DNA of 64,000 bases, from assembly GCF_000739655.1 (NCBI RefSeq), contig NZ_BATR01000181.1, positions 62,001 to 126,000 on the forward strand, given 5' to 3'. Position 1 is the stretch's first letter, and each line of letters opens with the position of its first letter. Source of the DNA: Verrucomicrobium sp. BvORR106 (lineage in GTDB: Bacteria > Verrucomicrobiota > Verrucomicrobiia > Verrucomicrobiales > Verrucomicrobiaceae). A program made the translations under genes and the position numbers. This document shows, in pieces, positions 18,383 to 45,651 of this stretch. Below the pieces are notes generated by a model. The model was not told where the DNA came from and ran no database searches. It was given only the letters and a program-made list of their open reading frames with translations.

Positions 18383-18737
18383 CAGTGGGGCGGGAAGAAA
18401 GAACAGCACCAGTACCGGGCAACCAGAATAGGTGCGCTCAGAACCAAAGCTTTAACTAGGCCCATCCGCTCCGTTCCGCAAGCAGTCGCCACCGGGAAGC
18501 GGCCCTCACAAGTGCGTCTGCCAGGCCAGGCATTGATCAAGAAGGGCGCCCCATCTGAATTCCCCACTTCTCCCGTCACCAAGCCTTCACACTCAACAAA
18601 CACCTCATGGACGAAACATCCTCTGGAACCTGCCCGCTCCACGGCGCCATGCGAACCTCGAACTCCAACCAAGATCCCCTTGAGCGCCCCGTGCACCCTC
18701 GCTAGAGGTGGAGGTTCATTTCACCCGTCATTCCTCC
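18383..18737. other. Divergent promoter region between ligase and ketosynthase
   Basis: About 355 bp separating two divergent coding units. A minus-strand open frame of 104 codons overlaps it but shows neither a start context nor homology. No clear sigma-70 boxes or operators could be picked out by eye. Confidence 0.45.
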
Positions 18738-20012: not shown

Positions 20013-20029
20013 CACCGCCGACCTCTCCC

Positions 20030-22383: not shown

Positions 22384-22589
22384 CCGCCTCCCGAGATAGG
22401 CGGGCTGCATCGGAATGCATCACTCCCGGACCGACCTGTGGCCCCGATGCCGAAGGCATCATACCCCCGGGGATCGGCGAAAACGGCCCCATCCTGAAAG
22501 GATGGCAGCAAGGTGCAGCCTCGGCGTCAACTCCGCCAATCTGGCCCCAACCAGCGCAGCGTCTCAACGATCCCGCCCTAAGCGGGATC
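22384..22589. repeat. Array of short perfect palindromes
   Basis: The ACP-rimO gap holds several perfect stem-loops: 22384-22389/22398-22403, 22406-22410/22415-22419, 22446-22451/22455-22460 (loop GAA), 22490-22495/22499-22504 (loop GAA), and 22569-22576/22582-22589 next to the rimO stop codon. Their shared GAA loops and tight spacing look like a REP-type repeat cluster; the last one could end rimO transcription. Confidence 0.55.
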
Positions 22590-24025
22590 TACTGAGCCAT
22601 CTTCGGCACCCGCTCGCGGAACGCCTCACGGCCCCCGTCACGACCGTTGAGGCCGCCTTGTGCCACGAGGTCATAGCCGCGCCAGTCGGAAATTGTCACC
22701 TCCGCGAACTCGCCCACTGGGAGTGCCGGATCGACAAATACGACGCCGTCGATGTCGATGGAGTCCATGTAGGAGCGGCCTTCTCCGGGGTTCTCCACCA
22801 GCACGCGGTAGGTCTTGCCCAGCTGGCTGGCGTTGAACTCCTCTGCCCGATGCTGCAAGACGCGCATGGCCTCGTTCCACCGGCGCTTGCGGGTGGAGTG
22901 GTGCAGATGGCCCTCCATCTTGTCGGCACGCGTGCCCTCCTCACGGGAGTAGTTGAACACGCCCGCGCGCTCGAATTTGGTCTCCTCGATGAACTGCACG
23001 AGCTCCTCGAAGTCCTCCTCTGTCTCACCGGGGAAGCCGACGATGAACGTGGTGCGGATGGCGATATCAGGGATGCCGGCGCGCATGCGCTGGATGAGCT
23101 CACGGATGTACGCACCATTCGTCTCACGCTTCATCAGCGTCAGCATGTTGTCGCTGATGTGCTGGAGCGGGATATCCACGTACTTCACCACCTTCTCGCT
23201 CTCTGCCACGGCCTGGATGAGCTCATCGCTCCAGTGAGCCGGGTGGGTGTAGAGCAGGCGGATCCAGAAGTCGCCCTCCAGGGCATTCAGTTCGCGGATC
23301 AGGGTGGCCAAGCTCTCGCCACGGCTGCTGTCCACGCCGCTGCGCGGGTTCGGGCGCTGCCCTTCCCACTTGTCCATGCCAAAGTAGGTCGTGTCTTGGG
23401 AGATCAGGTTGATCTCCTTCACCCCGCTCTTGATGAGCGCCTTGGCCTCGAAGACCACGCTCTCCTGCGTGCGGCTGCGGTGCTTGCCGCGGATTTTCGG
23501 GATGATGCAGAAGGAGCAGGGATGGTTGCACCCCTCAGCGATCTTGATGTAGGCGGTGTGCTTCGGCGTGAGGCGGAAGCGCGGGGTGTCGTAGTCCGGG
23601 ATGTACTGCGGCTTCTCCGTGACGTGGTTTTCCGGGGCCTCGTCTTCCTCCCGCTTCTTGCCCATGAGCCCCTCGATGATGGGGGCCACCTTGGTGAGTT
23701 GGTCCAGACCGATGAAGGCATCCACCTCAGGCATGAGGTTCGGCAGTTCCTGGGCAAAGCGCTGGGCCATGCACCCCGCCACGATGATCTTCTGCTTGGC
23801 CCGGGTTTTCCCGCCCTCCGCACGGCCGTCCACGGCCTCGTGCACGCTGGCGATGCTCTCCTTCTTGGCCATGTCGATGAAGGAGCAGGTATTGATGATC
23901 AGCACATCTGCCTCCTCCGCCTGCGGGGTCATGGCCATCCCTGCCTGCTGCAGGTGCCCAATCATGATCTCAGAATCGATGAGATTCTTCGCACATCCGA
24001 GGGAAACGAGGCCGACTTTGGTCAT
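22589..24025 (-). CDS. rimO: Ribosomal protein S12 methylthiotransferase
   Basis: A 478-aa radical-SAM methylthiotransferase: N-terminal MTTase module starting VGLVSLGCAKNLIDSE with the cluster Cys residues, central CNHPCSFCIIPKIRGKHRSR (CxxxCxxC), and a C-terminal TRAM-like domain. The VSLGCAKN start and SRT motif mark RimO, which adds a methylthio group to Asp of ribosomal protein S12, rather than MiaB. ATG 24025 yields the canonical MTKVGLVSLGCAKN; the upstream ATG at 24034 would add three residues. Confidence 0.95.
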   Translation of the reverse strand: MTKVGLVSLGCAKNLIDSEIMIGHLQQAGMAMTPQAEEADVLIINTCSFIDMAKKESIASVHEAVDGRAEGGKTRAKQKIIVAGCMAQRFAQELPNLMPEVDAFIGLDQLTKVAPIIEGLMGKKREEDEAPENHVTEKPQYIPDYDTPRFRLTPKHTAYIKIAEGCNHPCSFCIIPKIRGKHRSRTQESVVFEAKALIKSGVKEINLISQDTTYFGMDKWEGQRPNPRSGVDSSRGESLATLIRELNALEGDFWIRLLYTHPAHWSDELIQAVAESEKVVKYVDIPLQHISDNMLTLMKRETNGAYIRELIQRMRAGIPDIAIRTTFIVGFPGETEEDFEELVQFIEETKFERAGVFNYSREEGTRADKMEGHLHHSTRKRRWNEAMRVLQHRAEEFNASQLGKTYRVLVENPGEGRSYMDSIDIDGVVFVDPALPVGEFAEVTISDWRGYDLVAQGGLNGRDGGREAFRERVPKMAQ

Positions 24026-24192
24026 GGGGCGCAAAGTCTAGCACAAATGGCAAGGGAAGAAAGAAATTACAGCAACCCGGGACCATTCGCCCGCATATAA
24101 GGAGAATCCCGATGTCTTTGGATAGACGTCTTCAGAGCTTTTTGGCATAACCCAATATCGCCCAAAAACCTCTCCCGAAGGGTGCCCCCCCT

Positions 24193-25698
24193 ATGACGTC
24201 CGTGCCACCCGATTCCTCTCCATTCGACCCCGACTTGGACAAGCGGCAGATTCAAAAGCAAACTCGCCGCGCCTTGTTGCTGATCTTGGGCTTCATTTTG
24301 GCACTGATGATCACCTTCATCGGTCTGCTGCTTTTTTACGACGTCCCAATGCCGGACGACTCCTCCCTCTCGGTGACAACCCAGGAGCTACAACTGCCTG
24401 CCGTAACATCGCAGGCGGCGAAAAACCCCTTGGCCGACCTGGTCAATGCGCTGAAAGCCGCCAAAATGGAGAGAGTGGAGGAGCTCCCTTCCCGGGCGCG
24501 CACGCTTGAGCCTGGAACCGAAGCCGAAGTTCGCACGTTCCTCGCCACTCAGGGCCAGGCCTTTGCCGCCTTCGACACTCTGCTCCACTCGCCCCAGGCT
24601 GGACAGTGGCGCTGGCCAGAGCTGGGCACGGAGCCCGCCACCAGGTGGACGGGTGAGTCCATCTCCTCAATTCAGAATATAGCCAACCTCATCCGTCTCC
24701 GCTACCGCTTGGAGCTTGCGGACGGTGAATGGGAAAAGTGCCTCTACAGCCTCACCTCCCTCATTCAGTTCGGATCAGCCCTGCAACGTCGCCCGGGCAC
24801 ACTCATCCATCTCCTGGTGGCCGGCAACGCCCAACGGATGGGTGAATCCGGCCTGGAAGCAGCTCTCACACTCCAGACCGTTCCTGCCGACCGTCTCGCC
24901 GTCTTACAGCAGCTGCTCACTGGCCTTGAGCAAGATCGTACCAACTACGAACTCAGCCTCCGCATTGAATATGCCATCTTCAAAGAGATGATCCCACTGA
25001 TGGTCGATGCGGCCGACCTACAAGCATACCACGGCACAAAGCTCCTCGAACCCTTCGCCCCGTTGCTGCTGAAGCCAGGCATGTCCTGCACGGTTCGCGC
25101 CCAACACGACCAGGCAACCATCGCCACACTCCATCAAGGGTGGAAGGAAGGCTTGCTCCTGCAGACAACCCTGGCAAATGAGTTCGAGGCAAAAACCCAA
25201 TCGCAGATCCGCCGCCTGCTCAGCGCCAACCCTGTAGGCGACTACCATCACCTCCAGTATACAGGGTCAGCCAAAAGCATTCTGGGCCGCCAACTCACCG
25301 ACATCGCGCTCCACCGCCAGACCGTTCTCCAGCTCGCCCTGCGTCGCTATGAACTCGACCACGGTCAAGTACCCGATCAACTAACCATCCTCGTCCCGCA
25401 GTACCTACCCGAGGTTCCTCTCGATCCCTTCACCGACCTTCCTATGACGTGGCTCCCCGCCACTCAGGTACTCTACTCCATCGGCGAGGATTTCACGGAC
25501 AACGGTGGCACCTTCACCAAGCCCGCCAGCCGCAGGGGCCCCGATCTCGCCATGCACTACTGGTGGAGCGATGCCGCGGCGAAATGGCGCGAGGAGCAGC
25601 GGCTCGAGTCGCAACGCAATAGCGCTGGTCGCAAAAGCACCAAAAAGAAGAGCGCATCTTCCAAGCCCGCTCCACCGCAAGCCGCGACGGGTCCTTAA
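24193..25698 (+). CDS. Paralogue family member 1 (anchored protein with GspG-like C-terminus)
   Basis: A 501-aa member of a tandem family of unknown function. It has a short cytoplasmic leader, one transmembrane helix (about 27-48), then DVPMPDD (50-56), WRWPELG (139-145), LLLKPG (291-296), LALRRYELDHGQVPDQL (381-397), LPEVPLDPF (405-413), YSIGEDFTDNGG (428-439) and a final YWW (456-458), followed by a Lys-rich tail. The C-terminal motif order resembles the globular part of the GspG pseudopilin (inferred). Membership is clear from the shared motifs; no known function is suggested. It heads the run. Confidence 0.85.
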   Translation: MTSVPPDSSPFDPDLDKRQIQKQTRRALLLILGFILALMITFIGLLLFYDVPMPDDSSLSVTTQELQLPAVTSQAAKNPLADLVNALKAAKMERVEELPSRARTLEPGTEAEVRTFLATQGQAFAAFDTLLHSPQAGQWRWPELGTEPATRWTGESISSIQNIANLIRLRYRLELADGEWEKCLYSLTSLIQFGSALQRRPGTLIHLLVAGNAQRMGESGLEAALTLQTVPADRLAVLQQLLTGLEQDRTNYELSLRIEYAIFKEMIPLMVDAADLQAYHGTKLLEPFAPLLLKPGMSCTVRAQHDQATIATLHQGWKEGLLLQTTLANEFEAKTQSQIRRLLSANPVGDYHHLQYTGSAKSILGRQLTDIALHRQTVLQLALRRYELDHGQVPDQLTILVPQYLPEVPLDPFTDLPMTWLPATQVLYSIGEDFTDNGGTFTKPASRRGPDLAMHYWWSDAAAKWREEQRLESQRNSAGRKSTKKKSASSKPAPPQAATGP

Positions 25699-25825
25699 GT
25701 CGTCTCCTTTTCGTCTGCCCACCCACTCATTTCGATTAGCCTTCCCGAGCCCCCTGATGCACTGGAACAATCACATTCAGGCCATCCATCCCGTCGCCCC
25801 TCCAAGAGTCCATACACACTCACAC

Positions 25826-27190
25826 ATGTTCCACAACTTAGCATGCCTTTGCTTCGCGTCCCTGTTGCTCTCCGGGTTGCCTCATGTGTACGGACAGGCG
25901 TGGGACCTGCCCATGCCGGATGACTCCACCTACTCCATCACGGCCAAAGAGCTTGTTTCACCAAGAGCGACAAAGAAGGCCCCCAACCCCTTGGCAGCAT
26001 TCCTGGCCATTCCTGAGATCACCCAGGTGATCAGTGTGCCTGAGACACCGTCACGTGACTATGGCGACGATGCAAGGTTCGTCGTCACTTCACAGAACAG
26101 TCAGATTCTCCTGCAGGCATTTGACCACCTCGTGAATCAGACTCGACCGGAGGACTGGTATTGGGCGGAACTGGGCATCGGTCCGGCCAACGATTGGACG
26201 ACAGGATCACCAGCCGCCGTCAGAAAGGCGCTGCAGGCGGTCAATCTTTGCGCCATTTCGGCGATGCTATCTGGAGATCAGGATCTGGCTTTGGCGACAT
26301 TCACCAGCCTCGCCAAGTTCTCTGAGATCATTCAGCGCCAGCCATGCGGTCTGGCGCATCTGGTGATCAGCACCACCGCACTGCGCATGAGCCAGGCCCA
26401 ACTGGAAAGGACCCTCGTCTTGCGTCACCTGGGACCCCACCGACTCTCGGAACTCCAGCAACAGCTCACCATTCGCGAGTTGGGCGTCAGCGACATTCAA
26501 CGAGCCCTGCGAATCGACTACACGCAGTTCAGCGCATCCCTTCCTCAACTGGCCGATGCTGATGACCTTACCGAGTATCAAGGCACAACACGGCTCGACC
26601 CCTTTGCCTCGCTCCTGCTCAAGCCGGGCATTACTTGCACGATGCGACTGGAGTATGACCAGGTTCTCCTGGCAGCTCTTGGCCGAAGCTGGAAAGAAGG
26701 CCTCCAGATAGCAGCAAATACGAACAGGGAGTTTATCTTTGCCACGCGACACCTGGCCCAACGCAGGTTGAATCCAAATCCGTTGGGGGAATACCATCAT
26801 CAGCAGCATTTGAGCAAGATGCCCGTCCTGCTGGATGAGTTTGCCCAGTGCATCACCGCTCATCGGCTGACACTGCTTCAGATCGCGATCAGGCGCTATG
26901 AGCTCGACCAAGACAAACTTCCAGCCCAATTGGACGAACTGGTGCCCAAGTATCTTCCAGCAGTCCCCACCGACCCCTTTGCCAACGCTCCCATGCGGTG
27001 GAACCCAAACAAACAGGCACTCTATTCCGTTGGACTCGATTTCATCGACGACGGCGGCAAATTCTGGCGTCCCGCAGCGCCCGGTGAATCAGACATGGGC
27101 ATGCTCTACTGGTGGGGAGAGCCCGGTGGGAGGCGGAGACACACCGCCTCCGATACCACCGTCCTCTGCGTGCCCTTGCCGAGAAAATAG
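25826..27190 (+). CDS. Paralogue family member 2
   Basis: A 454-aa family member: DLPMPDDS, WYWAELG, LLLKPGITCTMR, LNPNPLGEYHH, IRRYELDQDKLPAQL, LPAVPTDPF, YSVGLDFIDDGG and YWWGEPGG are all present. It differs at the N-terminus: instead of a basic leader plus a long anchor it has a short hydrophobic signal-like segment (FHNLACLCFASLLLSGL), which may be cleaved. ATGs at 25757 and 25826 are both possible; the shorter keeps the usual family length. The C-terminus extends past YWW with a short basic tail (LPRK). Confidence 0.78.
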   Translation: MFHNLACLCFASLLLSGLPHVYGQAWDLPMPDDSTYSITAKELVSPRATKKAPNPLAAFLAIPEITQVISVPETPSRDYGDDARFVVTSQNSQILLQAFDHLVNQTRPEDWYWAELGIGPANDWTTGSPAAVRKALQAVNLCAISAMLSGDQDLALATFTSLAKFSEIIQRQPCGLAHLVISTTALRMSQAQLERTLVLRHLGPHRLSELQQQLTIRELGVSDIQRALRIDYTQFSASLPQLADADDLTEYQGTTRLDPFASLLLKPGITCTMRLEYDQVLLAALGRSWKEGLQIAANTNREFIFATRHLAQRRLNPNPLGEYHHQQHLSKMPVLLDEFAQCITAHRLTLLQIAIRRYELDQDKLPAQLDELVPKYLPAVPTDPFANAPMRWNPNKQALYSVGLDFIDDGGKFWRPAAPGESDMGMLYWWGEPGGRRRHTASDTTVLCVPLPRK

Positions 27191-27250
27191 CTGCATCCCT
27201 CCTGCCATCACCTTCCCCACACCTGCCTCCAACCCGACATCACGCGCACC

Positions 27251-28552
27251 ATGGAGTCCCGAAAACATGCCCGGAGCGTCTTCCTGACTTTCGCGGGATT
27301 GTTTCTGTTGTCGCTCGGAGTGCTCGCATGGTTGGTGTTCCGCGATGGTCCGCCACCCGACGATGCGCACTTGCTACCACAAGCGGATGAGACAACAGAG
27401 CTCCCCAATCCGCTGTCCATCTACTTGCGGACAGTTGGAATCACCGGATACCCCATAGAGTTCGATCCCCCTCACTCCCCCATCCCTCCAAAGAGCACGG
27501 AAGAGGACCTGGCAGCTTATCGAGACCTCCTGAACAGCAACAGTGCCTCCTGGCGCTGGCCGAAGAAACACCTCACGGATGGAGCTGCCTATGCCTTCCA
27601 TCGCGAGATCAATCTGCCGCTCACCGACACCCTTCATCGAAGCCTCAAACACGCGCGCTCTGGCGCAAACGAAGAGGCCATCCGGCTCGCTTCGCATACT
27701 TTCCAGCTTGGCCATGGGATGACCAGGGCGGGCGGCGACACATTCCTGTTTGATGCTGGCTCGTCCATCTACACTCAGGGTCTCCACCATTTGGGCAACC
27801 TTGCCAAGCTTCAATCCTGGACGGCAACAGACCTCCGCCAATGGCTTGGCCGACTGTCAGACCTTCCTCCCCCAGGAATCCCAGAATTCATCTCAGTCCG
27901 GAAAATGGACTACCTCAAGTTCCGGCTGACACTCGATGAAGTGTTCGAGCCCGGCATAGGTCCTTTCGTCCGAAGCGACCCCTTTATTCCGAGTGGTTTC
28001 GCTTCGAACGGCGGATTCCAAAGCACTTTCAAACGCAATCAAACCCTTCAGTTGCGGTGTCTGTGGGAGAACGCCACTCTTGAACACCTGAAGCAAGGCT
28101 GGCTCGCTGCTTATCAACAAGAGGCCATGCGCTGGGAACGTTTGGATGCGAACTCAACACGAAGACAGGCGCTCTACACTTGCAACATCCTTGGCTGGCA
28201 GATCCTGCGAAATCATACACGCACCAATCGGGACAGCCTGCGCGATGCCATGTCGCTACAGGCCCTCTACGAGGCAACTCGTGTGACGCTCGCGCTGCGG
28301 ATTTACGAACTCGAACAAGGGCGACTTCCCGATCAACTCTCTGATTTGGCCCCAGGGATCCTACAAGACACACCCAACGATGTCTTTGCCAATGCTCCAT
28401 TGGTTTGGAACCGCGAAAAGAACGTTGTTTACTCCATCGGCCCAGATCTGATCTCCAACAACGGGGATGTCTCAGACGAGGAGGATGACTCGCGACACCC
28501 TCCAGACATCGGAGTGAAGTACTGGTGGCCCCCTTCCAGTCAGACTCAGTGA
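27251..28552 (+). CDS. Paralogue family member 3
   Basis: The 433-aa product has an N-terminal anchor (VFLTFAGLFLLSLGVLAWLVF), DGPPPDD, WRWPKKH, then FKRNQTLQLR in place of the usual LLKPN, LALRIYELEQGRLPDQL, LQDTPNDVF, YSIGPDLISNNGD and YWWPPSSQTQ. The central segment is the shortest of the family. It starts 60 bp after member 2. Function unknown; membership is from motif order, not global identity. Confidence 0.83.
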   Translation: MESRKHARSVFLTFAGLFLLSLGVLAWLVFRDGPPPDDAHLLPQADETTELPNPLSIYLRTVGITGYPIEFDPPHSPIPPKSTEEDLAAYRDLLNSNSASWRWPKKHLTDGAAYAFHREINLPLTDTLHRSLKHARSGANEEAIRLASHTFQLGHGMTRAGGDTFLFDAGSSIYTQGLHHLGNLAKLQSWTATDLRQWLGRLSDLPPPGIPEFISVRKMDYLKFRLTLDEVFEPGIGPFVRSDPFIPSGFASNGGFQSTFKRNQTLQLRCLWENATLEHLKQGWLAAYQQEAMRWERLDANSTRRQALYTCNILGWQILRNHTRTNRDSLRDAMSLQALYEATRVTLALRIYELEQGRLPDQLSDLAPGILQDTPNDVFANAPLVWNREKNVVYSIGPDLISNNGDVSDEEDDSRHPPDIGVKYWWPPSSQTQ

Positions 28553-28686
28553 CGCCTTGCTTGCCGTTTAGCCAGGGGGATCAATACCCTCCGCTCAGAA
28601 CACTGATCACTCCCCCCACTGACTCACCATTCACAAAACCTGCTCAGGATGACTGTTGAGTTCAACTCATAACCGTGCCCTTCCCC

Positions 28687-30084
28687 ATGTCAGCAATCTC
28701 AAATCCCAACACCACTCAGGCACACTCCAGTCGCCGTGCACTGATCGTCGTGGTTGCTTTGGCACTTTCGCTCGTCACCGCCCTCATCGCCTTCTTGGCG
28801 ACTTATGACATCGAACCACCTGATGCCAGCGACATGGCCCCGGCCGTGTCCGCGGAATCGTCAGAATTCAATCAGACCAATCCTCTGAGGAAATTTCTCA
28901 CAGTCCTCCAGCAACACCCTGTAGAAGCCTCACCTCTGCAGAAGAAAACTCCGAGAGCAGCAGGGCCTTCACCCCAGGAAACTGCGCTGAACAACCGCCC
29001 GGTGGTCCTCAAGGCGTACGAGGAGCTTTTACAAACCAACCCCGACTCCTGGCGATGGCCGACGGAACCTGGCGAGTCCCTTGAGACATCGCTGGATCAT
29101 CAGTTGAAACACCTGATGCCAGTTGCCAATCTAATCCGGGTGCAAGCTGGCCTCGACGAATCCACCTCTCCGGAAGAATCCGCCCTAACCACTCTTTCTC
29201 TTGCAAAGTTCGCTCATGGGCTAAACAACGCCGGAGGTCTCTTGATTCACAACATGATGGCTTCTGCCATCCAGCGCACCGCCGTTCTCCAGTTGGAACG
29301 CCCGCTCGCTCTAAATGCCATCTCTTCGGCCAGCTTGATGAAAATCCAGAAACAGCTGGAGGATCTTGACCCTTCCCTCATCGGTTTCATCGCCACTCTT
29401 AAGGCCGAATACTTGTTTACCGCCGAGGCCTATCGAGCCACGAAGAGCGGCGTGGCCCTAGCGGTCGATCCTCGAAAACTGGACCTCAAAGGTTACCCAG
29501 AGCCCTTGAAGGGCATGCTGCTCAAGCCCAATCTCACCCTCGCCACACGCCTGGAAATGCATCGGCAGCTGATCAAGGGGCTTGAAACCAGTTGGAAGGC
29601 AGCATTCGACGCCCATCAGACAACCAAGCAGAATCTCGGCAAGATCTTCCAGTCACCCGTGCGATTCTGGCTCAATCCCAACACCACCGGCATCGCCTTC
29701 AGCGTGCTGGATGCCCAAGACCTCCAGGACTCCCTGATCCGCCAGATCGGTCACGCAACCATCCACAGACAAGTCATCCTGCAAGTCGCCCTGCGCCGCT
29801 ACGAACTGGATCACCATCGGTTGCCTGATGACCTGAGTGAACTCTCGCCTGCCTATCTATCCTCAATCCCCCAGGATCCCTTCACCGACCTCCCCATGCG
29901 TTGGAACCCCAGCACGCAAGTCATCTATTCCGTTGGCGTGAATGGCTCCGATGACAGTGGATTCTTCCGCATTCCCGCCACCATTGATGAGCCTGACATC
30001 GGTCAATACTACTGGTGGAGCAAGCCAGCCTTCAAGGCGCGGGATGCCCAGCGGCTGGCACCGCCAGAGGCAAGAGGGCGGTGA
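28687..30084 (+). CDS. Paralogue family member 4
   Basis: The 465-aa product has a basic leader, a membrane helix (IVVVALALSLVTALIAFLA), DIEPPDASD (a variant of D-x-P-x-P-D-D), WRWPTEP, MLLKPNLTLATR, LNPNTTGIAF, ALRRYELDHHRLPDDL, LSSIPQDPF, YSVGVNGSDDSG and YYWWSKPA. ATG 28687 is preferred to the GTG at 28675. No known family. Confidence 0.83.
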   Translation: MSAISNPNTTQAHSSRRALIVVVALALSLVTALIAFLATYDIEPPDASDMAPAVSAESSEFNQTNPLRKFLTVLQQHPVEASPLQKKTPRAAGPSPQETALNNRPVVLKAYEELLQTNPDSWRWPTEPGESLETSLDHQLKHLMPVANLIRVQAGLDESTSPEESALTTLSLAKFAHGLNNAGGLLIHNMMASAIQRTAVLQLERPLALNAISSASLMKIQKQLEDLDPSLIGFIATLKAEYLFTAEAYRATKSGVALAVDPRKLDLKGYPEPLKGMLLKPNLTLATRLEMHRQLIKGLETSWKAAFDAHQTTKQNLGKIFQSPVRFWLNPNTTGIAFSVLDAQDLQDSLIRQIGHATIHRQVILQVALRRYELDHHRLPDDLSELSPAYLSSIPQDPFTDLPMRWNPSTQVIYSVGVNGSDDSGFFRIPATIDEPDIGQYYWWSKPAFKARDAQRLAPPEARGR

Positions 30085-30127
30085 TCAGCTTAATTCGTAA
30101 TCGCAACGGACTACTGGCCCTCCCCTC

Positions 30128-31510
30128 ATGCTCTGGAGCCCCCATCAGCTCTACCGGAACCCACTTCTCCTAGGCGCAGGCTTTTTCCTTCTCCTGTCAG
30201 GATCAACAGCATGGCTGTTCATCTTCCACGATGCGCCCGATCCCGATGATGCGCACATGTTGCCTGCACCCACTCTGATTCACGTCGAATCCAATGCCCT
30301 GGCGCAGTATGTCGCCGCAACAAATCACATGCCGATAAAGGGCATGGAAGCCGTGGTCAGCTCTCCTGCCGATCCTTTTGCCGAACCCAACCTTCATGAC
30401 CCGGAGAAGCTGAAAGAACACTTTCTCCGCACTGACTTGGAGGAGGCCGGTGCCATCGCGGCATTTCGGGCGCTGTCTGACTCAGACGTTTCCACATGGG
30501 AGTGGCCTTATCCCCAATTTGACCCACCACCAGCCCGACGAATGGCCCGAATTAGCGCACTGGACGTGACTTCAGGTTATCTCCTCGCAAAGTGCCCGCT
30601 GCTGGTAGCATCAGGCAAAACAGCCGAGGCAACAGAGTTGGCGCTACTTGTCTTTCGAGTGAACCACCGCGCCGCAATCGCAAAACTTACCTCAGACCAG
30701 TATGTTTCGAGTCTGGGAACACAACATCAGTGCCTGGAAGTTCTGTCAGAAATCCTGAGCGGCTCCGAGGCCACGCCAGAATTGCTGCGCACGACGCTGG
30801 CCACCCTCACCACTCATGTTCCCGCCAATCTTGACGCATACACTCATGCTCGCAAATCAGCGTATGAGCACTTCAAACGCTTGATCAAAGATGCCGTCGC
30901 CCGCGATACTTTGGAGTACCATCTTCGTATTTCCTGGTACGCACCGCTACGTGCTCGATTCACCCCTTTGACACTGACCCTCAAGCCCAATGCCACTCTG
31001 CATCTGCGACTGGAAATAGAGGACAGGATGTCCGATGCCCTGAAGACAGGCTGGCCGAGCGCCGTCCAGAGCGCCTTGATTGAAATCCAACGGTCACGGG
31101 AGGTTCTGGGTTCGCTCGGTAACTGGCGCGCCTACATCGATGGCAATCACGGAGGGAAATGGGCCCACCATCGCTGTATTCAAGAAGACCTCGACACGCT
31201 GTTTGACCTGCTCTGTCTGCAGGATGCCTACGAAGTCACCCGCATCAATCTCGCCCTGCGACTCTTTGAGTTGCAATCGGGGACTCTCCCAAATGATATT
31301 GCAGCGCTGACACCTGACACCCTTTCTTCCACTCCCATCATTCTTTCGACCGGGGATGTACTCCGGTGGAACCGAAACAAGGGCATCATTCATCTGCCCG
31401 GAGCGGATTTACATCCAACCAAGGCAGAGATTCGAAAACTGCCGTACTCCCACCCCGACGCCTATGAAATCACATCCACGTACTGGTGGGCAAATGTCAA
31501 AGCTGAGTAA
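30128..31510 (+). CDS. Paralogue family member 5
   Basis: A 460-aa member with anchor (LLLGAGFFLLLSGSTAWLF), DAPDPDDAHML, WEWPYPQ, TLKPNATLHLR, YIDGNHGGKW, LALRLFELQSGTLPND, LRWNRNKGIIHL and a final TYWWANVKAE. It is the most divergent in the C-terminal module: the YSVG and DDGG motifs are degraded. It ends in a short tail after YWW. Starts 43 bp after member 4. Confidence 0.8.
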   Translation: MLWSPHQLYRNPLLLGAGFFLLLSGSTAWLFIFHDAPDPDDAHMLPAPTLIHVESNALAQYVAATNHMPIKGMEAVVSSPADPFAEPNLHDPEKLKEHFLRTDLEEAGAIAAFRALSDSDVSTWEWPYPQFDPPPARRMARISALDVTSGYLLAKCPLLVASGKTAEATELALLVFRVNHRAAIAKLTSDQYVSSLGTQHQCLEVLSEILSGSEATPELLRTTLATLTTHVPANLDAYTHARKSAYEHFKRLIKDAVARDTLEYHLRISWYAPLRARFTPLTLTLKPNATLHLRLEIEDRMSDALKTGWPSAVQSALIEIQRSREVLGSLGNWRAYIDGNHGGKWAHHRCIQEDLDTLFDLLCLQDAYEVTRINLALRLFELQSGTLPNDIAALTPDTLSSTPIILSTGDVLRWNRNKGIIHLPGADLHPTKAEIRKLPYSHPDAYEITSTYWWANVKAE

Positions 31511-31533
31511 CAAGCAAACCTCGTTCAAGCAGG

Positions 31534-32910
31534 ATGTCGTCGTCTGACAATACCATTCTCGTTCACAGCGCGGAACCCAAACGCCAGACCCGTCGCGCCT
31601 GGTGGCTTGCCTCCGGCGCATTGGTGGCCGTCCTCGGCGTTGCCGTGGGAGTGCTCCTGTTCTTCGATGTGCCTCCAGTTGATGACTCGGCCCTTTCCCC
31701 TTCGGCAGAACTTCCCTCTTCCATTCCCAATCCTCTGGCAGAGTTTCTGGCGACCGTGCCTGCTGCACTCCAGGACGATTTCCTGAAACTTCCTGAAGAG
31801 TCACGCAAGCTCGTTCCAGGCCACGAGGCAACCATCCGGACCTTTCTCGACGAGCAAGCCTCAACACTGGACTCATTGGACAAGCTTCTCTCCACAGATT
31901 CTGTCGTGTGGCGCTGGCCCGGCGTACGCGATCCAGCCACGCTGGACTCTGCATGGAAAAATACTCGCGTTTTCCCCTTTCTTGCCAAATTCCTCGACCT
32001 TCGCTCGAGCTTGCGGCAGCAGGATGGAAGTGCCGTAGGCGCGCTGGATGACTGCCTTCGCATCTATCAACTGGCCGCAGGCCTGGCCCGGACGGATGGA
32101 GAAGTGGAATTTCAGATCATTTCCAACCGAATGCTCTCCTCCGCGAATGGCGTGTTGGAGCGCGTCATTGTCGCTCACGAGTACGGACCGGAGCATCTCA
32201 AGAACGTTCAGAACAAACTGACCGAATGCACCATCCGTCCCACAGATCTAATCCAGGGCATCAAGCTGGAGCATCAGCGTTTCAAGCAAGTCGTGGAGAT
32301 CCCTCGAGTCCGAAACGCAGACTGGGCATGGTGCCTGAGCACCCGGCCTCTGGAGAGAGCCTTGGCACCTTATCTGTACAAGCCCAACATGACCTTGGCA
32401 ACGAGACAGGCATTTGTCCTCCCCATCGTGCGGAACCTTGAGTTGGGATGGCTTCCTGCCCGTCGTGCTGCGCAAGATGCCGAGGCAGAAATGACCCGAA
32501 TCAACAGGAATCCTTTTCGCAAAAGCTTCAACCCCAATGCAGGTGGCTACGTCCTGGTCAAAGGCTCCATCGGGTCAACAATCGGATGCATTGGCAGCGG
32601 GGCCTACGCTGCCGCCTTGCACCAAGTTACCATCCTGCAACTCGCCTTGCGCCGTCATCAACTTGAGACGGGGACCCTGCCAGCGAAACTCAGCCAACTC
32701 GTGCCGAAGTATCTTCCTGAGGTGCCACTTGACCCCTTGGACGGCCACCCCCTCAGATGGAGTGCTAAAAATCAGGCCATCTATTCGGTGGGACAAAACA
32801 ACCTCGATGACGGAGGCAAACTAAACCCGCCCGGAAAGATCTATTCCACGGACCTCGGTCAATTTTATTGGTGGGGACAAGAGGCTCGCAAGCACCGCAT
32901 AGCCCCCTGA
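31534..32910 (+). CDS. Paralogue family member 6
   Basis: A 458-aa member: basic leader with RRAWW, membrane helix (GALVAVLGVAVGVLLFF), DVPPVDD, WRWPGVR, LYKPNMTLATR, FNPNAGGYVL, LALRRHQLETGTLPAKL, LPEVPLDPLDG, YSVGQNNLDDGGK and FYWWGQEARKHRIAP. The tail after YWW is strikingly like that of member 8 (YYWWGEEARKHPIER), more than the rest of the two proteins would predict. Starts 23 bp after member 5. Confidence 0.84.
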   Translation: MSSSDNTILVHSAEPKRQTRRAWWLASGALVAVLGVAVGVLLFFDVPPVDDSALSPSAELPSSIPNPLAEFLATVPAALQDDFLKLPEESRKLVPGHEATIRTFLDEQASTLDSLDKLLSTDSVVWRWPGVRDPATLDSAWKNTRVFPFLAKFLDLRSSLRQQDGSAVGALDDCLRIYQLAAGLARTDGEVEFQIISNRMLSSANGVLERVIVAHEYGPEHLKNVQNKLTECTIRPTDLIQGIKLEHQRFKQVVEIPRVRNADWAWCLSTRPLERALAPYLYKPNMTLATRQAFVLPIVRNLELGWLPARRAAQDAEAEMTRINRNPFRKSFNPNAGGYVLVKGSIGSTIGCIGSGAYAAALHQVTILQLALRRHQLETGTLPAKLSQLVPKYLPEVPLDPLDGHPLRWSAKNQAIYSVGQNNLDDGGKLNPPGKIYSTDLGQFYWWGQEARKHRIAP

Positions 32911-32924
32911 CGACACCCCTCACC

Positions 32925-34334
32925 ATGACTACGGCTGAACAAGCGGCGGCATCCGTCTCCTCCCGTCGGGTATGGAGGATAGGGCTGGGCCTTCTGACAC
33001 TCCTGCTCGCCATCGTCGGCTGGCTCATCATCTTTCTCGACGGCCCGCCACCTGACGACGCTGACATAATTCCCCAGTGGTCCACTCAGACCACGGACAG
33101 CAACCCTCTGGCGGTCTTCTGTGCTGATATCAAGAAGACTTCCGTAGAGGAAGTGTTCACGATACCCGAATCCACTCGCTACCTGCACAAGGGAAGTGAG
33201 GCCGAGGTCCAAGCTTTTCTCGACAGCCAGTCGATGGCCTTCACCCTCTTTGATCACCTGATGGCTACCGATCCCGCCACCTGGCAATGGCCAGGCGGGA
33301 TTCAGGTGACCGACATCATGGCCCCACCGGACTACTTCGCAAAGATTAGAGAAATGTCGTTCACGATGCGAATGAAGGTTCAACAACTTTCCCGACAAGG
33401 CCATCACGAAGAAGCCTTGCAACATTGCCTGTCGTTGGTGGCATTCGGCCATCGGCTTCACGGATCAAAGGGGACCATCATTCACCAAATGGCGGCCAGC
33501 ACCACATTTACCACCGCTCTCAGTTTGATCGAAGAGGTCATGGCAAATGGAGCCTTCACCGAAGGCCAGCTGCAACAGATCCAAATGGATCTCGAGCCGT
33601 TGATCGGATGCAGCCCGACTGACTATGCATTCGCCCTACGCGGTGAGTATCTCAGCCTCAAGCGCTGCCTTCCTGAAGCCCGCCAGAAGGGCTGGGGAGT
33701 GATGTACGATGGCTCCACGCCCTTGCCCGGTATCCTGGGGCGCATGGTGAAGACAAATCACACCATGAGCCTTGATCTCGCCCTGATGCGCCCCGTCGTC
33801 GCTGCCCTCACACGGTCCTGGCACGAAGCCCTGATCGCAAACGAACAGCTATCCCGCGATATTCAACATCTGCAAAGTCAAATCCATAAGCCCCGGTTCT
33901 ATCTTGACGGAAATTACGGCGGCAAGGTCCTCGTGATTCAAACTCACACCATGACGAACTTCCTCCCTAGAATCCTTGCTACCAATTCCCAGTATCAGGA
34001 AGTGCTCACTATGCTCGCGCTCCGTCGGTTCGAGTTGCAACACGGCCGTCTGCCTGCCACCCTTGACGAACTTGTACCGACCTATCTCGCCGCCCCGCCC
34101 ATCGATCCATTCAGCGATGCGCCCCTGCGGTGGGACGCCTCGCGCAAGATCCTCTATTCCGTAGGCCCCAACCTCACGGACGACGGCGGGGCCATTGACC
34201 CCGGCAAGCGCCGTCGGGGCGAAGACGCAGGGAACTTGTATTGGTGGAGCCCTGAAGCCATCAGAGAGCGCGAGGAACAATTGCAGGAGAAGAACACTTC
34301 CAGCCCAGGCAAACGGAAGACCAGATCATTGTAG
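32925..34334 (+). CDS. Paralogue family member 7
   Basis: A 469-aa member with membrane helix (IGLGLLTLLLAIVGWLIIFL), DGPPPDD, WQWPGGI, MVKTNHTMSLD in place of LLKPN, YLDGNYGGKVLV, LALRRFELQHGRLPATL, LAAPPIDPF, YSVGPNLTDDGG and LYWWSPEAIREREEQ. ATG 32925, 14 bp after member 6, follows the stop closely and supports co-transcription. The longer frame from 32868 overlaps member 6 and is rejected. Ends in a basic/Ser-Lys tail. Confidence 0.84.
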   Translation: MTTAEQAAASVSSRRVWRIGLGLLTLLLAIVGWLIIFLDGPPPDDADIIPQWSTQTTDSNPLAVFCADIKKTSVEEVFTIPESTRYLHKGSEAEVQAFLDSQSMAFTLFDHLMATDPATWQWPGGIQVTDIMAPPDYFAKIREMSFTMRMKVQQLSRQGHHEEALQHCLSLVAFGHRLHGSKGTIIHQMAASTTFTTALSLIEEVMANGAFTEGQLQQIQMDLEPLIGCSPTDYAFALRGEYLSLKRCLPEARQKGWGVMYDGSTPLPGILGRMVKTNHTMSLDLALMRPVVAALTRSWHEALIANEQLSRDIQHLQSQIHKPRFYLDGNYGGKVLVIQTHTMTNFLPRILATNSQYQEVLTMLALRRFELQHGRLPATLDELVPTYLAAPPIDPFSDAPLRWDASRKILYSVGPNLTDDGGAIDPGKRRRGEDAGNLYWWSPEAIREREEQLQEKNTSSPGKRKTRSL

Positions 34335-34420
34335 CAGGCCCCGTTCCGCGCCCTCGCCCACTGAGGTTCACCTTCAGTTCTTCAAAAATACCTAACGCCC
34401 GTCAATCAACAAACCTGCCA

Positions 34421-35806
34421 ATGGCCAAGAAGCCTGAACATGTCGTGCCGGATGCCCGGCGTCAGTCCCGAGCTGTCTGGAGCGTCGCACTCAGCCTCCT
34501 GGCCCTTACCATGATCGGCCCAGTCGTGTTCCTCGCGATATACGATGGCCCCGCCCCTGATGACACCCTCATGAAACCAGACTGGACTTCGGTCGGCAAG
34601 GGAACCGATCCATCTCCTCTCGCGAAGTTTATTGAAGCCCTCCGTATCCCGACAGACCCATCGTCTGAGCCTTTCTGGATGCTGGTGCCCCTCACCCCAG
34701 AGCAAGAGCAGTTTCAGGCTGACCATTCGTCCGCTTTCGCAGCAGTAGATGCACTTCTTGACACTGACCCGTCCACATGGATCTGGCCGGACGCCGGACT
34801 CCCGCATGATTTCAAACTCTTTTTTGGTTCACCGGTACAACTCCACCTTCTCGAGAGTTTTCTAGAGCAGCGTCTGCTTGATCATCGCAAGTCAGATCGG
34901 CTTGATCTCGGCATTGCCGACTGCCTCAAACTGATTCGGCTGGGTTGTCACCTCAGCCGCGTCAAACAAAGCCTCCAACGGATGGAACAGGCTCTTGAAC
35001 TTCAAGCCTATGCTGAAAAGTCCCTTGAAAAATTACTGACTCACCCAGGCACTTCCGAATCACAGATTCAGTCTTGCTTGGAAACCTTGCTCGCACTTGA
35101 GGGACCGGATCGCGAGCACTTGAGATTTGCCATCCAAGTCCACCATGAGTGGGTCACGCAATTCATCAGCGATCATGCAAACCAGGATACATTCTTTAAA
35201 AGCAACTGGCCGGGTGACAGACCGGTACTCGCCGATGAAATCAAGGTCAATCAATGCCTCACTATGTGGCTTTCCCGGGCCAAGCCCCTGTTTGAAGGAC
35301 TTGCGGTTGACTGGAACACCGGACTATCCATAGCAAATCGGCAACCTCCCCAGCCATCCGCAACATTCGCTAGGCTGACTCGGATTCGCCTCACTCTGTC
35401 CCGGAATCGCTTCGGAGCCGAAGAGACGGAACAGTTTTCCGAACGTCTTTGTACTCAGCCAAACAATGTCATGGATCACGCTGCCGTGCATGACATCATC
35501 GTCCAAATCCTTGCCCTACGTCTCTACGAGCTTCGCCAGGGTCGCCTGCCTACTCACCTGGAGGAACTGACATCCAGTATCCTTCCCTCGCTTCCCACTG
35601 ACCTCTACAGTAAACTCCCCTACCGCTGGAATCAAACCACTCAGACCCTCTACTCCATAGGAGCCGATGGCACAGACAGTGACGGAAACATCAACCACGT
35701 CTCTCCGATCCCTAAGTCCAGCGAAGGCTTTCGTTTCAATCGAAAAGATGTTGGTCAATACTACTGGTGGGGCGAAGAAGCACGCAAGCATCCCATAGAA
35801 CGGTGA
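34421..35806 (+). CDS. Paralogue family member 8
   Basis: A 461-aa member: basic leader (ARRQSRAVW), membrane helix (SVALSLLALTMIGPVVFLAI), DGPAPDD, WIWPDAG, IKVNQCLTMW in place of LLKPN, LALRLYELRQGRLPTHL, LPSLPTDLYS, YSIGADGTDSDGN and YYWWGEEARKHPIER. ATG 34421 gives a short basic leader like the others. The GADGTDSDG stretch is the one most like the GspG calcium loop (GADG-x-x-GG). Confidence 0.84.
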   Translation: MAKKPEHVVPDARRQSRAVWSVALSLLALTMIGPVVFLAIYDGPAPDDTLMKPDWTSVGKGTDPSPLAKFIEALRIPTDPSSEPFWMLVPLTPEQEQFQADHSSAFAAVDALLDTDPSTWIWPDAGLPHDFKLFFGSPVQLHLLESFLEQRLLDHRKSDRLDLGIADCLKLIRLGCHLSRVKQSLQRMEQALELQAYAEKSLEKLLTHPGTSESQIQSCLETLLALEGPDREHLRFAIQVHHEWVTQFISDHANQDTFFKSNWPGDRPVLADEIKVNQCLTMWLSRAKPLFEGLAVDWNTGLSIANRQPPQPSATFARLTRIRLTLSRNRFGAEETEQFSERLCTQPNNVMDHAAVHDIIVQILALRLYELRQGRLPTHLEELTSSILPSLPTDLYSKLPYRWNQTTQTLYSIGADGTDSDGNINHVSPIPKSSEGFRFNRKDVGQYYWWGEEARKHPIER

Positions 35807-35971
35807 GGGTGCATCCGGGAACAAGGAGCTGAAGCGTGCACAAGATGCCCCTTCTCTCCGATCCCACCAAGCATCGACTGACACCACGGATCCCTGGCAG
35901 ACGGCGGAACCGACCCACGCAAAGCGACCCGCCCACTCGGTGATTGCCCTGCGAATTCACGCCTAATTCAC

Positions 35972-36457
35972 ATGCCCTTCCTAGATCCTTCACACGGTAC
36001 AGCAAGAATGCGGAGAGTCACGTCCCACCGCGCAAGTCCGCCAACCGAACACGCCCGCCACACTCCCCCACTCGTGAAAAGGCCCTTCCTCGTTATCCTT
36101 CTCCTCGCAGTACTGCTCTTCGGGTTCGTGATCTGGCGAGCCCAGGGCATTGTTCTTGCAGAAGCAAACGCCCCTCAGGGAGTCGGCGTGGTCACCGTAC
36201 GTAAAGTCTTCTGGCATCCTTGGTCGATTGGAGCCCTGCTGGGGCAAGGTGAGTCCTTCATTTGCGCCGACTATCGGCGGAATGCGGGAGGCCCCATCTT
36301 CAGCAGTTTCGGCTTCTATGGTGAAAGCTTCTATCCGAAAAACGTGGAGATCCACTGGAGTAGCGCCGGGCGCGCCAAGGTCATCATGGACGGTGTTGCC
36401 TACATGCACCTTTCTGAAGAAAACTGGTTATGGTCTGAACCTGGCAAGCCGGGCTAG
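35972..36457 (+). CDS. Single-pass membrane protein of unknown function
   Basis: The 161-aa product is unlike its neighbours: a basic leader, one membrane helix (PFLVILLLAVLLFGFVIW, about residues 39-56), then a short extracytoplasmic domain with several aromatic residues (VRKVFWHPWSIGALLG, FGFYGESFYPKNVEIHWSSAGRAKVIMDG, and ENWLWSEPG). No family recognised. It interrupts the tandem family between members 8 and 9 in the same orientation and may work with them. ATG 35972 gives the full length; ATG 36008 (MRRVTSHR) is an alternative. Confidence 0.65.
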   Translation: MPFLDPSHGTARMRRVTSHRASPPTEHARHTPPLVKRPFLVILLLAVLLFGFVIWRAQGIVLAEANAPQGVGVVTVRKVFWHPWSIGALLGQGESFICADYRRNAGGPIFSSFGFYGESFYPKNVEIHWSSAGRAKVIMDGVAYMHLSEENWLWSEPGKPG

Positions 36458-36528
36458 GAGGTTCGCCCACAGCTATTCAACATCCAGCTCATCCTTTGTG
36501 TCGTCGATGGCACCCCACCCCTGCGCCT

Positions 36529-37874
36529 ATGTCCGAAGAACCAGCCATCCTCAAGTCGGCAGAAGCTGATGGTTTCGATGACCGCCCTTCAAGCGCTCAG
36601 AAGGTCCGCTTCGGTTGTGCCATTCTCTTGCTACTGCTGCTATGGCTCACCGTCACACTCTATTTGGTGGATGTGCCGGCACCTCACGATCAGGATCTTA
36701 GTCCCCAGTGGTCTGAAATCTCTGAGGACAAAAATCCGCTGGTCAAGTTTGTCCTAGAGTACCGAGCCGTCAGAGTCCGACGACCTGCGCCCTACCTCAC
36801 CAAAAGCAGTCATTCCGGCAGCGCCGCCGCACACGCAGCGGCAACATACAACCTTGAAATCAACCAACACGCCCTGTCGGCTTTTGACAAACTGCTCGCC
36901 AGCAGTCATTCCTCGTGGCGCTGGCGGGGCATAGGACCCGACGTCGGCTCCAACTACTTGGAGGACAAGACTCACTCTCTCCTTCCTGCCCAGAATGAAG
37001 TCATCACGATGGCGGAGATTGTGCAGATGCGAGGGATGCATCTCGCCGCCAGCGGAGAGCCAGAAAAGGCTGTCCGTCAGTTTCTGGATCTACTTCTGTA
37101 TTTCCAGCGTCTGGACGCGGCCGAAGGGCAACTCCCGCAACAGATGCTCGTAATGGATTTGCGCCGCAGAGCGTTGCTCCAACTGGATGCCCTTTTGCGA
37201 AACTCCACGGTCCACCTGTCTCCGGAGACGTTCCCCCTCCTTGTCAACCGCCTTCAGACTCTGGAACCATCACGCTCCGGTCTACAGTTTATGCTTCACG
37301 CAGAGTACGAACTGTGGTCCCACAGAATGGGTCAATGGTTCACGATCCACGGTTTCCAGGCAGCGTTTTGGATCGACCACGGGCCCTGTATCCCGAAGCC
37401 CAGTTCAAACCTAACTTGACGCTCGTCGCCTACGGGTGGCGGATTCGACCTTTGCTTTTGGCACTGCAAGATGGATGGCCTTCCGTGCATCAACGTTTGC
37501 GTCATGAACCACCGCTTGCTGCGAAAACTGGGGTCACCAACTCCCTGCCCAGACTGGGCATCAACACCACTGGCGCCCAGGTCCTTCATCTCGTAGAAAC
37601 GGGCTCCGAGGTCTTGGTGGAGGATCTGCTTGAACAGGTGGTCTCCCTGCGGCTCATGACTTCTCATCTCGCCCTACGTCAGTTCGAGCTCCAATTCCAA
37701 CATCTCCCGAAAGAACCGGCTGAACTCTCTCCCTCCATTCTTGCCAGCCTTCCCATCGACCCTGGCACAGGCAAACCCATTCAATGGGACCCCGCATCCC
37801 GGCAGCTCTGTGTCAGGAACTTGAAGGGCGTCTTCACTTTGCACCCGTACTGGTGGAATTCTGAGACCAATTAG
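36529..37874 (+). pseudogene. Paralogue family member 9, frameshifted
   Basis: The first part keeps the family pattern (membrane helix CAILLLLLLWLTVTLYLV, DVPAPHDQDL, WRWRGIG) but stops in one frame after about 37420. The rest continues in another frame from about 37370: FKPNLTLVAY, LALRQFELQFQHLPKEP, LASLPIDPG and HPYWWNSETN. Adding one T to the TTTT run at 37366-37369 joins the two into a 448-aa protein of normal family length and order. It is either a one-base deletion in the consensus or a recent pseudogene; all other members read through. Confidence 0.75.
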
Positions 37875-37934: not shown

Positions 37935-38384
37935 TCACGGTTCCTGCTTTCTTGAGAGGTAACCCTGTGTTTGCGGACCTGCCATGACCCGCGCAAATCC
38001 GGGAAGATGGCGGTGAAACCAACGTGGATACGCGAGATAGAGCAGGACAAAAAACGCGCAGAGCGGCACCAACACACAGAGAACGACGGAGGCCAGATCG
38101 TAGCTGATGCCCACGTGACGGAACCACTGGAGAAAATCCACCGATGCATCAAACATTCTCTCAGCAAACATCGTCCAGTTGCTCACCGTCAGATATAACA
38201 CTGCTAGAAATACAGAGAACAAACTCAGGCAAACCGCCTTCCCCAGAATCTTGTCGATGAGGAGGAAAAACGCCATGGGCACGATCCCATAAAACACCAC
38301 GATGTTGATCTCCTTGTAGGTGAGTCCGGTCACCGAAGCCATCCACTCCAACGCCTGATAGACGATGTAAAACGTGAAGCTCAT
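37935..38384 (-). CDS. Small polytopic membrane protein
   Basis: A 149-aa product with about four hydrophobic helices (IVVFYGIVPMAFFLLI, AVCLSLFSVFLAVLYLTV, LASVVLCVLVPLCAFFVLLYLA) and a charged C-terminus (GPQTQGYLSRKQEP). It starts MSFTFYIVYQALEW and contains a Trp-rich segment between helices. No family recognised. It is convergent with the last member of the tandem family and precedes a second small membrane protein. Confidence 0.6.
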   Translation of the reverse strand: MSFTFYIVYQALEWMASVTGLTYKEINIVVFYGIVPMAFFLLIDKILGKAVCLSLFSVFLAVLYLTVSNWTMFAERMFDASVDFLQWFRHVGISYDLASVVLCVLVPLCAFFVLLYLAYPRWFHRHLPGFARVMAGPQTQGYLSRKQEP

Positions 38385-38582
38385 ATTGTGCGTGAGCCAG
38401 CAGCCCATTGTGGGGACCGCTCCACTCACCACAACAGTGACACTTACTCGGAGCCTTGCAACGTGGATCTCCTCGGCTCAAAGCCACTCCGCTTTCTCAG
38501 AAGAGATGGCCCACTCCCCCCCTCACAGGAAAGCTACGAAGTGGCAAGATCAAGCTGGCTCCAGAGCGAGGCAGACACTCCG

Positions 38583-38852: not shown

Positions 38853-39767
38853 TCACCCTTTGACCGGCAGCATACCGAAGGCCTCCAACACCACACGGGC
38901 CGCCGCAGCGATCACCTCATTCTGCCACTTCGCATCCGCCGCCTTTTGCGTGTGATATATTGCGAGCACAATCGGCTTGCGCCCCGGTGGCCAAAGGATT
39001 GCAACGTCATTGGCCGTGCCGTAGTCCCCTGATCCTGTCTTGTCGCCCACCTTCCAGTCAGGAGGCACCGCCACCCGGATCCTTTTGTCCCCGGTGGTAT
39101 TGCCTTGCAGCCACTCCACCAGCTTCGCACGCTGCGTCTCTGGCAGTCCGTCGCCCAATGCCAGCTTCCGCAAGCTGTGCCCCATCGCTGCCGGGCTCGA
39201 GGTATCACGCGGATCACCTGGCAACGCCGTGTTCAATTCTGTCTCCCATCGATCCAGGCGGAACTGCGAGTCGCCGATTGATCGCGCAAACGCCGTCACC
39301 GCGCCAGGCCCACCCAGGATCTTCATCAGAAGATTCGCCGCTGTATTGTCACTGTACTGCATGGCGGCCGCGCACAACGCCTCCACCGTCATCCCGTCTT
39401 TCACATGCTTCTCCGTGACAGGTGAATAGGTCACCAGTTCCTCTTTCGCATAGGAGATACGCCGCGTCATCAACCCTGCATCCTGCACACTCTGTTTCAG
39501 AATCGCCGAGGTCAGGATCATCTTGAAGGTGCTGCACACGGGGAACCGCTCTTCCGACCGGTGCTTTACTTCCATGCCGCTCTCGATATCAAGTGCATAC
39601 ACACCCAGTCGGGCGCCATCCGGGCCTTCTATTCCCTCAAGCTTGCTGATGGCAGCAGCCAGCGTCGCGACCGACTCTTGAGCAGACAAGGTTGCCATTC
39701 GGGGTGCCACCACTCCAGCCACGCCAAGCAGCCAAACGGTTCTACAAAAAGAAGAGCGAGTCATCAT
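38853..39767 (-). CDS. Class A beta-lactamase
   Basis: A 304-aa product with a signal sequence and every class A active-site motif: Ser79-Thr-Phe-Lys82 (SxxK; consensus Ser70/Lys73), Ser139-Asp-Asn141 (SDN), Glu175 in WETELN (consensus Glu166, with the following Asn), and Lys243-Thr-Gly (KTG). A Cys precedes the nucleophile (VCSTFK), as in CTX-M-type enzymes. It would hydrolyse beta-lactams in the periplasm. No ampR-like regulator is adjacent. The ATG pair at 39767 gives the normal signal peptide; the frame upstream is longer. Confidence 0.92.
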   Translation of the reverse strand: MMTRSSFCRTVWLLGVAGVVAPRMATLSAQESVATLAAAISKLEGIEGPDGARLGVYALDIESGMEVKHRSEERFPVCSTFKMILTSAILKQSVQDAGLMTRRISYAKEELVTYSPVTEKHVKDGMTVEALCAAAMQYSDNTAANLLMKILGGPGAVTAFARSIGDSQFRLDRWETELNTALPGDPRDTSSPAAMGHSLRKLALGDGLPETQRAKLVEWLQGNTTGDKRIRVAVPPDWKVGDKTGSGDYGTANDVAILWPPGRKPIVLAIYHTQKAADAKWQNEVIAAAARVVLEAFGMLPVKG

Positions 39768-39895
39768 GCTTAAATCAGATCTTACTGTGCGGCAAACCAT
39801 CCGGCAAGACCAGGCCGTTGTCCCGAGGCATTCGGAGCCATCCCGCAGTTCCACGCGCTGACGATAGTATATGTCAGTCCCTGGAAAGCGCCGGA

Positions 39896-45444: not shown

Positions 45445-45651
45445 GGGAACCAATGGCTTAGCACAGGGCGGGAGGGAGGAAACCCGAAAGTTCAGAGATC
45501 GAGTCTCAACTACGGACCTTCTCCCCCACCGTCAGTTTTTACGATGAGTGTTGAAAGAATGACGTTCTGATGACGGGTGCCGAAAGGCGGTTCACACCAC
45601 CTCCCGACTCCCCATGAGGTTGTTCTCAGCAGGAGAGAACAGCACACAGCC

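Follow-up and report, generated by a model that had tools for sequence, protein, structure and literature searches.

A tandem array of membrane-anchored proteins with a GspG-like C-terminal head beside rimO in Verrucomicrobium sp. BvORR106

Introduction

What are the diverged, unnamed paralogues that lie head to tail beside rimO in Verrucomicrobium, and what might such proteins do? The window studied here, a 64,000-nucleotide stretch of the Verrucomicrobium sp. BvORR106 genome (8.69 Mb; contig NZ_BATR01000181.1, positions 62,001 to 126,000 of the forward strand), carries at positions 24193-37874 on the plus strand nine paralogues, eight of them intact and one frameshifted, numbered here as genes 1 to 9. 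We report that the predicted proteins combine an N-terminal membrane anchor, a helical body and a C-terminal head, and that there is good evidence for homology between this head and the globular domain of GspG, the major subunit (major pseudopilin) of the type II secretion system (T2SS) pseudopilus.

A preliminary description of the locus, made from the sequence alone, had assigned the proteins to no named family. Scans of the window members against Pfam and NCBIfam gave no family match, the PADLOC and PHROGs models gave none at E 0.01, and a plasmid search for the family returned zero matches; the C-terminal motifs, in contrast, belong to a GspG head that can be recognised by hhalign, AlphaFold, Foldseek and VIA-align. 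The GspG domain is already known, while its position on a non-pilin anchor and the tandem array are undescribed in the open-licence papers searched (partly as titles and abstracts), among which we found no published account of this pilin-headed architecture or array in Verrucomicrobia or Planctomycetes.

Results

The C-terminal head and GspG

Most of the C-terminal motifs shared by the paralogues fall within the last ~100 residues, which constitute the GspG-like head. An alignment (A3) of heads from the window and from Verrucomicrobium BvORR034, compared by hhalign with a GspG alignment from the same verrucomicrobial order, gave a probability of 94.8% (E 5e-8, score 48.5), and a wider head alignment gave 96.6% (E 6e-10, score 56.1). 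In the controls with A3, 60 column-shuffled GspG alignments scored 12.1 on average and 21.4 at most, the reversed alignment 11.2 and a GspH-like alignment 10.7.

Structure prediction had been proposed as a check, and models were obtained for full-length gene 7 and for the head alone; in the latter (predicted local distance difference test, pLDDT, 92) the head is predicted to have the GspG fold, with a globular part packed on helix alpha1C as in pilins. Searching the PDB with this model using Foldseek placed EpsG, GspG or PulG at all of ranks 1-12 (probability 0.87-0.98, E 0.04-0.35, values that are common for a domain this small). With VIA-align the Z scores ranged between 8.2 and 10.4 across six GspG-type entries (PulG, GspG and EpsG), including 10.4 for PulG and 9.8 for EpsG (2.0 Å over 84 residues), and were 6.6 or lower for type IV pilins. 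Sequence matches to single models are weaker: a divergent relative (L118) stays below threshold with both Pfam T2SSG (E 0.032, 14.7 vs a 21-bit cut-off) and TIGR01710 (E 0.085, 12.9 vs 88.85 bits), and the family profile matches the GspG of its own genome at E 0.046. Two positions were compared with a view to the calcium site in the C-terminal loop of GspG: seven of the eight intact copies retain both the Asp/Asn after YSxGx and the Asp ahead of the terminal YWW, and gene 5 has Glu at the second.

Anchor and body

Hydropathy analysis revealed a single membrane segment and no second one, and positive-inside charge flanks the clear anchors, which suggests an N-in/C-out topology. The N-terminal hydrophobicity is 1.8-3.0 in all copies except gene 2 (1.57). 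In the AlphaFold model of full-length gene 7 (pLDDT 84, predicted template modelling score 0.83, alignment of 13 sequences), a transmembrane helix spans residues 3-37, the helical body 61-344 and the head 347-440. The body is thus predicted to be all-helical with no convincing relative in the PDB; Foldseek returned no significant match to the full-length model. VIA-align gave Z values up to 9.6 for this model, which were set aside because the matches are designed repeat proteins and large helical assemblies and such values mean little for helical models.

The first 90 residues of the window members, and of a relative on contig C127 of the same genome, show no class III prepilin motif (leader, G-F-x-x-x-E and hydrophobic alpha1N). 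As an N-terminal class III signal is the defining feature of prepilins (PMC10191384), the family members are not pilins but rather pilin-headed membrane proteins.

Organisation of the array

The array and the gene that borders it upstream are as follows.

22589-24034, minus strand: rimO, ribosomal protein S12 methylthiotransferase (Pfam UPF0004/Radical_SAM/TRAM), divergent neighbour by which the locus is recognised in three genera
24193-25698, plus strand: family gene 1, 501 aa, GspG head ~25270-25608
25826-27190 (alternative start 25757), plus strand: family gene 2, 454 aa from 25826, head ~26819-27157
27251-28552, plus strand: family gene 3, 433 aa, head ~28226-28549
28675-30084, plus strand: family gene 4, 469 aa, the recombined segment being the body (~codons 115-325)
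30128-31510, plus strand: family gene 5, 460 aa, degenerate head, long branch
31534-32910, plus strand: family gene 6, 458 aa, BvORR034 orthologue truncated by a deletion
32925-34334 (open reading frame, ORF, opens at 32868), plus strand: family gene 7, 469 aa, full-length AlphaFold model
34421-35806, plus strand: family gene 8, 461 aa
35972-36457, plus strand: non-family ORF between copies 8 and 9, 161 aa, one hydrophobic segment
36496-37874 (36496-37419 in one frame, 37314-37874 in another), plus strand: family gene 9, frameshifted, degenerate head

The eight intact ORFs can be aligned over their full length, 27 columns being invariant, and gene 4 as query finds its best paralogues with E = 3e-60 to 2e-27. 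The nine same-strand tandem paralogues of the preliminary description are thereby confirmed as to eight; the ninth is frameshifted and is separated from gene 8 by the 161-aa ORF. Since gene 9 is split by the frameshift and has a degenerate C-terminus, it is probably a decaying gene (pseudogene). The ordered motifs that had been noticed, i.e. PDD past the membrane helix, WxWP and LxKPN-T, followed in the C-terminal part by RRYEL...LP, PxDPF, YSxGxDxxDDGG and YWW, were verified, except that DPF and YSxGxDxxDDGG are missing from gene 5, and genes 5 and 9 carry degenerate versions. Likewise, the one membrane helix ascribed to each protein is clear in all copies but gene 2, where it is weak and resembles a signal peptide.

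The gaps between copies are 14 to ~130 bp, close to the 14-135 bp reported before, with an exception of 165 bp preceding the 161-aa ORF. Consensus sigma-70 and terminator-like sites in the array are no commoner than in shuffled sequence and, for this reason, co-transcription is no more than plausible.

The 161-aa ORF (57-60% identity to its BvORR034 counterpart, no Pfam match) could have a function connected with the array. The array is bordered by a minus-strand ORF (37935-38432; several hydrophobic stretches, 68% in BvORR034, no Pfam match), and a beta-lactamase-family gene, bla (38853-39854; Beta-lactamase2, E 5e-44), is kept beside the array in both BvORR034 and Verrucomicrobium G003. Together with rimO and bla, the identified neighbours comprise a glycosyltransferase (41237-42517) and ApbE. 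Elsewhere in the window, 43683-45464 encodes a PSCyt1 (planctomycete-type cytochrome c) domain fused to an FGE-sulfatase (formylglycine-generating) domain, and at 18708-21136 two adjacent ketoacyl-synthase-like ORFs resemble a fatty-acid or aryl-polyene type cluster.

Distribution in the phylum

Conservation outside the strain, a point set beforehand for judging the family, was found: a 29-row head profile searched against 195 genomes sampled across the phylum identified members in 75. Tandem runs occur, by a hand count among the matches listed, in ~10 of the 38 genomes with at least two matches (e.g. G103, G039, G042, G051, G058 and G150), which together with the array bears out the claim of a repeatedly duplicated family. 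Besides the array, the BvORR106 genome itself holds family sequences on three further contigs: C127 has one copy, C190 two in tandem, and C144 gives a short match. A scan of the genome collection with a single protein (gene 4) gave BvORR034 as the sole match (87% identical).

GspG is present in 180 of the 195 genomes; BvORR106 encodes a real GspG on contigs other than that of the window (C73 and C200). As a separate observation, the GspG model gave 139-281 first-look candidates in each of G103, G039, G045, G047 and G042 (family f18), pointing to a very large content of pseudopilin-like genes in these genomes.

Turnover of the array between species

Family members adjoin rimO in three genera. 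In BvORR034 there are five intact copies and one truncated, and in G003 one intact copy and fragments; other genomes have five (G004), three (G014) or one (G008) at rimO. In G008 a second copy immediately precedes the orthologue of the window glycosyltransferase, which in the window lies opposite rimO across the array, and the two copies are on separate contigs (L060:6763-9439 and L061:4516-7438). That the G008 copies adjoin the orthologues of both array-flanking genes suggests that an older array possibly once spanned rimO to the glycosyltransferase and has since been split in G008.

With copies labelled g (window), b (BvORR034) and v (G003), the tree gives the orthologue sets g1/b1, g4/b3/v3, g8/b6 and g6/b5 (truncated). 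Gene 4 alone is intact throughout the three Verrucomicrobium species, i.e. the window strain, BvORR034 and G003. The slot between g4 and g6 is occupied by g5 in the window, by b4 in BvORR034 and by a fragment of b4 in G003. Moreover, positions 32042 and 34372 of the window are joined in BvORR034; compared with the window, this is a 2.3-kb deletion, and it has taken away the remainder of gene 6 together with gene 7. For the Verrucomicrobium array members monophyly was rejected (p-AU 0.0145), which speaks against a clean genus-specific expansion, and for those of the sister genus it was not (0.224). Part of the array diversity may therefore predate the genus, with some duplications older than it; the deep branches are weak.

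Selection and the mosaic structure of gene 4

For intact orthologue pairs the whole-gene ratio of nonsynonymous to synonymous divergence (dN/dS) is 0.14-0.20; hence these genes are maintained under purifying selection, and gene-wide positive selection was not seen in these pairs. Among the paralogues the mean identity is 40% in the head and 20-21% in the body. Gene 4 is a mosaic: BvORR034 sides with G003 at codons 1-120 and from ~331 onward, and the window strain is its closer partner at codons ~121-330 (188 vs 128 informative sites, permutation p 5e-5), which places the breakpoints in the early body and near the head. The same permutation test showed no mosaic pattern in the flanking genes rimO (p 0.18) and bla (p 0.54). 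In the g8/b6 pair (two genomes compared), the proportion of synonymous differences is 0.23 in the N-terminal anchor region vs 0.5-0.87 downstream, which hints at a second breakpoint. Elevated synonymous divergence was also considered as a sign of old alleles, an idea that was dropped since other neighbouring genes reach similar values.

These data modify the earlier suggestion of recognition proteins under diversifying selection. In its simple form diversifying selection is not seen in the whole-gene dN/dS values, and diversification instead takes the form of gene turnover and, in one gene, of body swapping; both fit a recognition role in spirit, short of proof.

Discussion

The modules (anchor, body and GspG head), the relationship to GspG, the array with its decay and deletion, the maintenance of intact copies and the mosaic are well supported, and on this basis we tentatively propose that the proteins are inner-membrane adaptors or receptors whose pseudopilin head stays constant and whose ligand-binding body can be exchanged. 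Each would be a three-module periplasmic protein with an N-in/C-out anchor, a helical body of ~300 residues and a GspG head that lacks the polymerising prepilin N-terminus. Head and anchor would be the constant parts and the body the variable one, exchanged by recombination in the one traceable gene, and multiplied and lost inside the tandem array beside rimO. The constant head would dock on a common partner (most simply the pseudopilus, the platform on which it is assembled, or a further family member), and each body would bind a different ligand or substrate, such that the array supplies a set of adaptors or receptors that are interchangeable in the periplasm. As the constant partner, the T2SS filament or its platform is the most economical choice, given that the head corresponds to a domain of the filament subunit itself; it is nearly as likely that the proteins pack homotypically or that the role of the head is structural only.

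A more specific version, which we regard as unlikely, is that this is a hypervariable locus producing periplasmic receptors with a constant T2SS-type plug and recombining bodies that load cargo or partners onto the secretion filament. If true, it would add a "socket and interchangeable tool" layer to type II secretion in Verrucomicrobiota. To our knowledge, the choice of cargo by the T2SS is still poorly understood; a large unnamed family that joins the major pseudopilin's head to a non-pilin anchor, occurs widely in one phylum and has a fast turnover offers a testable lead on it. In addition, former "hypothetical proteins" gain a defined architecture that annotators can recognise.

Several points weigh against the adaptor reading. 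The head profile had zero matches in a PDB sequence search and no Foldseek match of the head model reached E 0.001, and the GspG link consequently rests on the profile comparison and the consistent structural matches. No gsp cluster or other T2SS-linking gene is found among the array neighbours; co-occurrence of the family with GspG is uninformative because GspG is near-universal in the phylum, and the incomplete genomes G153 and G210 hold the family with no GspG match at 1e-10. Gene 2, with its signal-peptide-like N-terminus, may be unanchored. The mosaic was traced in one gene and three species, which makes exchange of body cassettes a lead rather than a rule, and further nearby genes show some uneven synonymous divergence. 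Finally, both the docking of the head and the ligand-binding role of the body are what we infer here.

The alternative that survives best, which we nevertheless hold to be somewhat unlikely, is that these are structural or adhesive envelope proteins in which the head is a stable cap unlinked to secretion filaments, the bodies form or decorate the envelope and turnover is near-neutral. This agrees with the lack of a T2SS gene neighbourhood at the loci examined, the unmatched helical body and the many decayed copies, but intact copies are under purifying selection, and the body was swapped while head and anchor kept another history, suggesting a conserved task for the head.

It is quite improbable that the proteins are signal receptors whose body and head would detect an envelope signal and whose short N-terminal tail would report it to the cytoplasm, e.g. 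via extracytoplasmic function (ECF) sigma/anti-sigma pairs. The dispersed single-copy relative on C127 does adjoin an ECF sigma factor and an RskA-type anti-sigma factor (L062:6106-10701), and similar ORFs were seen by eye in G003, G004 and G006 (loci L064, L065 and L067); no sigma/anti-sigma gene was found beside the window array, however, and the cytoplasmic tails are short, variable and devoid of known domains.

We give still less weight to a phage-related role, either as a defence array or as receptors or decoys in which phage pressure drives the bodies to diversify: the mosaic body and the gene turnover at a fixed locus would suit it, but PADLOC and PHROGs are silent and the predicted site is the inner membrane, not the surface. 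That the proteins are genuine pseudopilins, processed by prepilin peptidase and joining the filament as the GspG head fold might imply, is hardly credible, since the sequence contradicts it: no member has the N-terminal class III motif that defines prepilins (PMC10191384), and 300 residues of body separate anchor and head.

Among known systems, arrays of constant/variable envelope proteins are comparable to the present array in their tandem paralogues, in decay and in the exchange of a variable part flanked by conserved ones (here seen in one gene); they differ in that the variable part of the present family is internal and that no switching machinery was seen, no detailed search for it having been made. 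With GspG/PulG/EpsG (PF08334, TIGR01710) the family shares the last ~90 residues, i.e. a helix, P-x-x-L, a DPF/DPW turn and a YSxGxDG loop, and its D-[IL]-G...W ending resembles the DDIGNW of GspG. In contrast to GspG, it has neither a class III signal peptide nor alpha1N, a helical body of ~300 residues splits anchor from head, and its sequence scores fall under the curated cut-off. The modular minor pilins of type 4 filaments (PMC10191384) likewise join a pilin-type head and an extra domain in one protein, but there the pilin is complete and the domain grafted onto it foreign, whereas the family described here places the pilin head behind a non-pilin anchor and a body.

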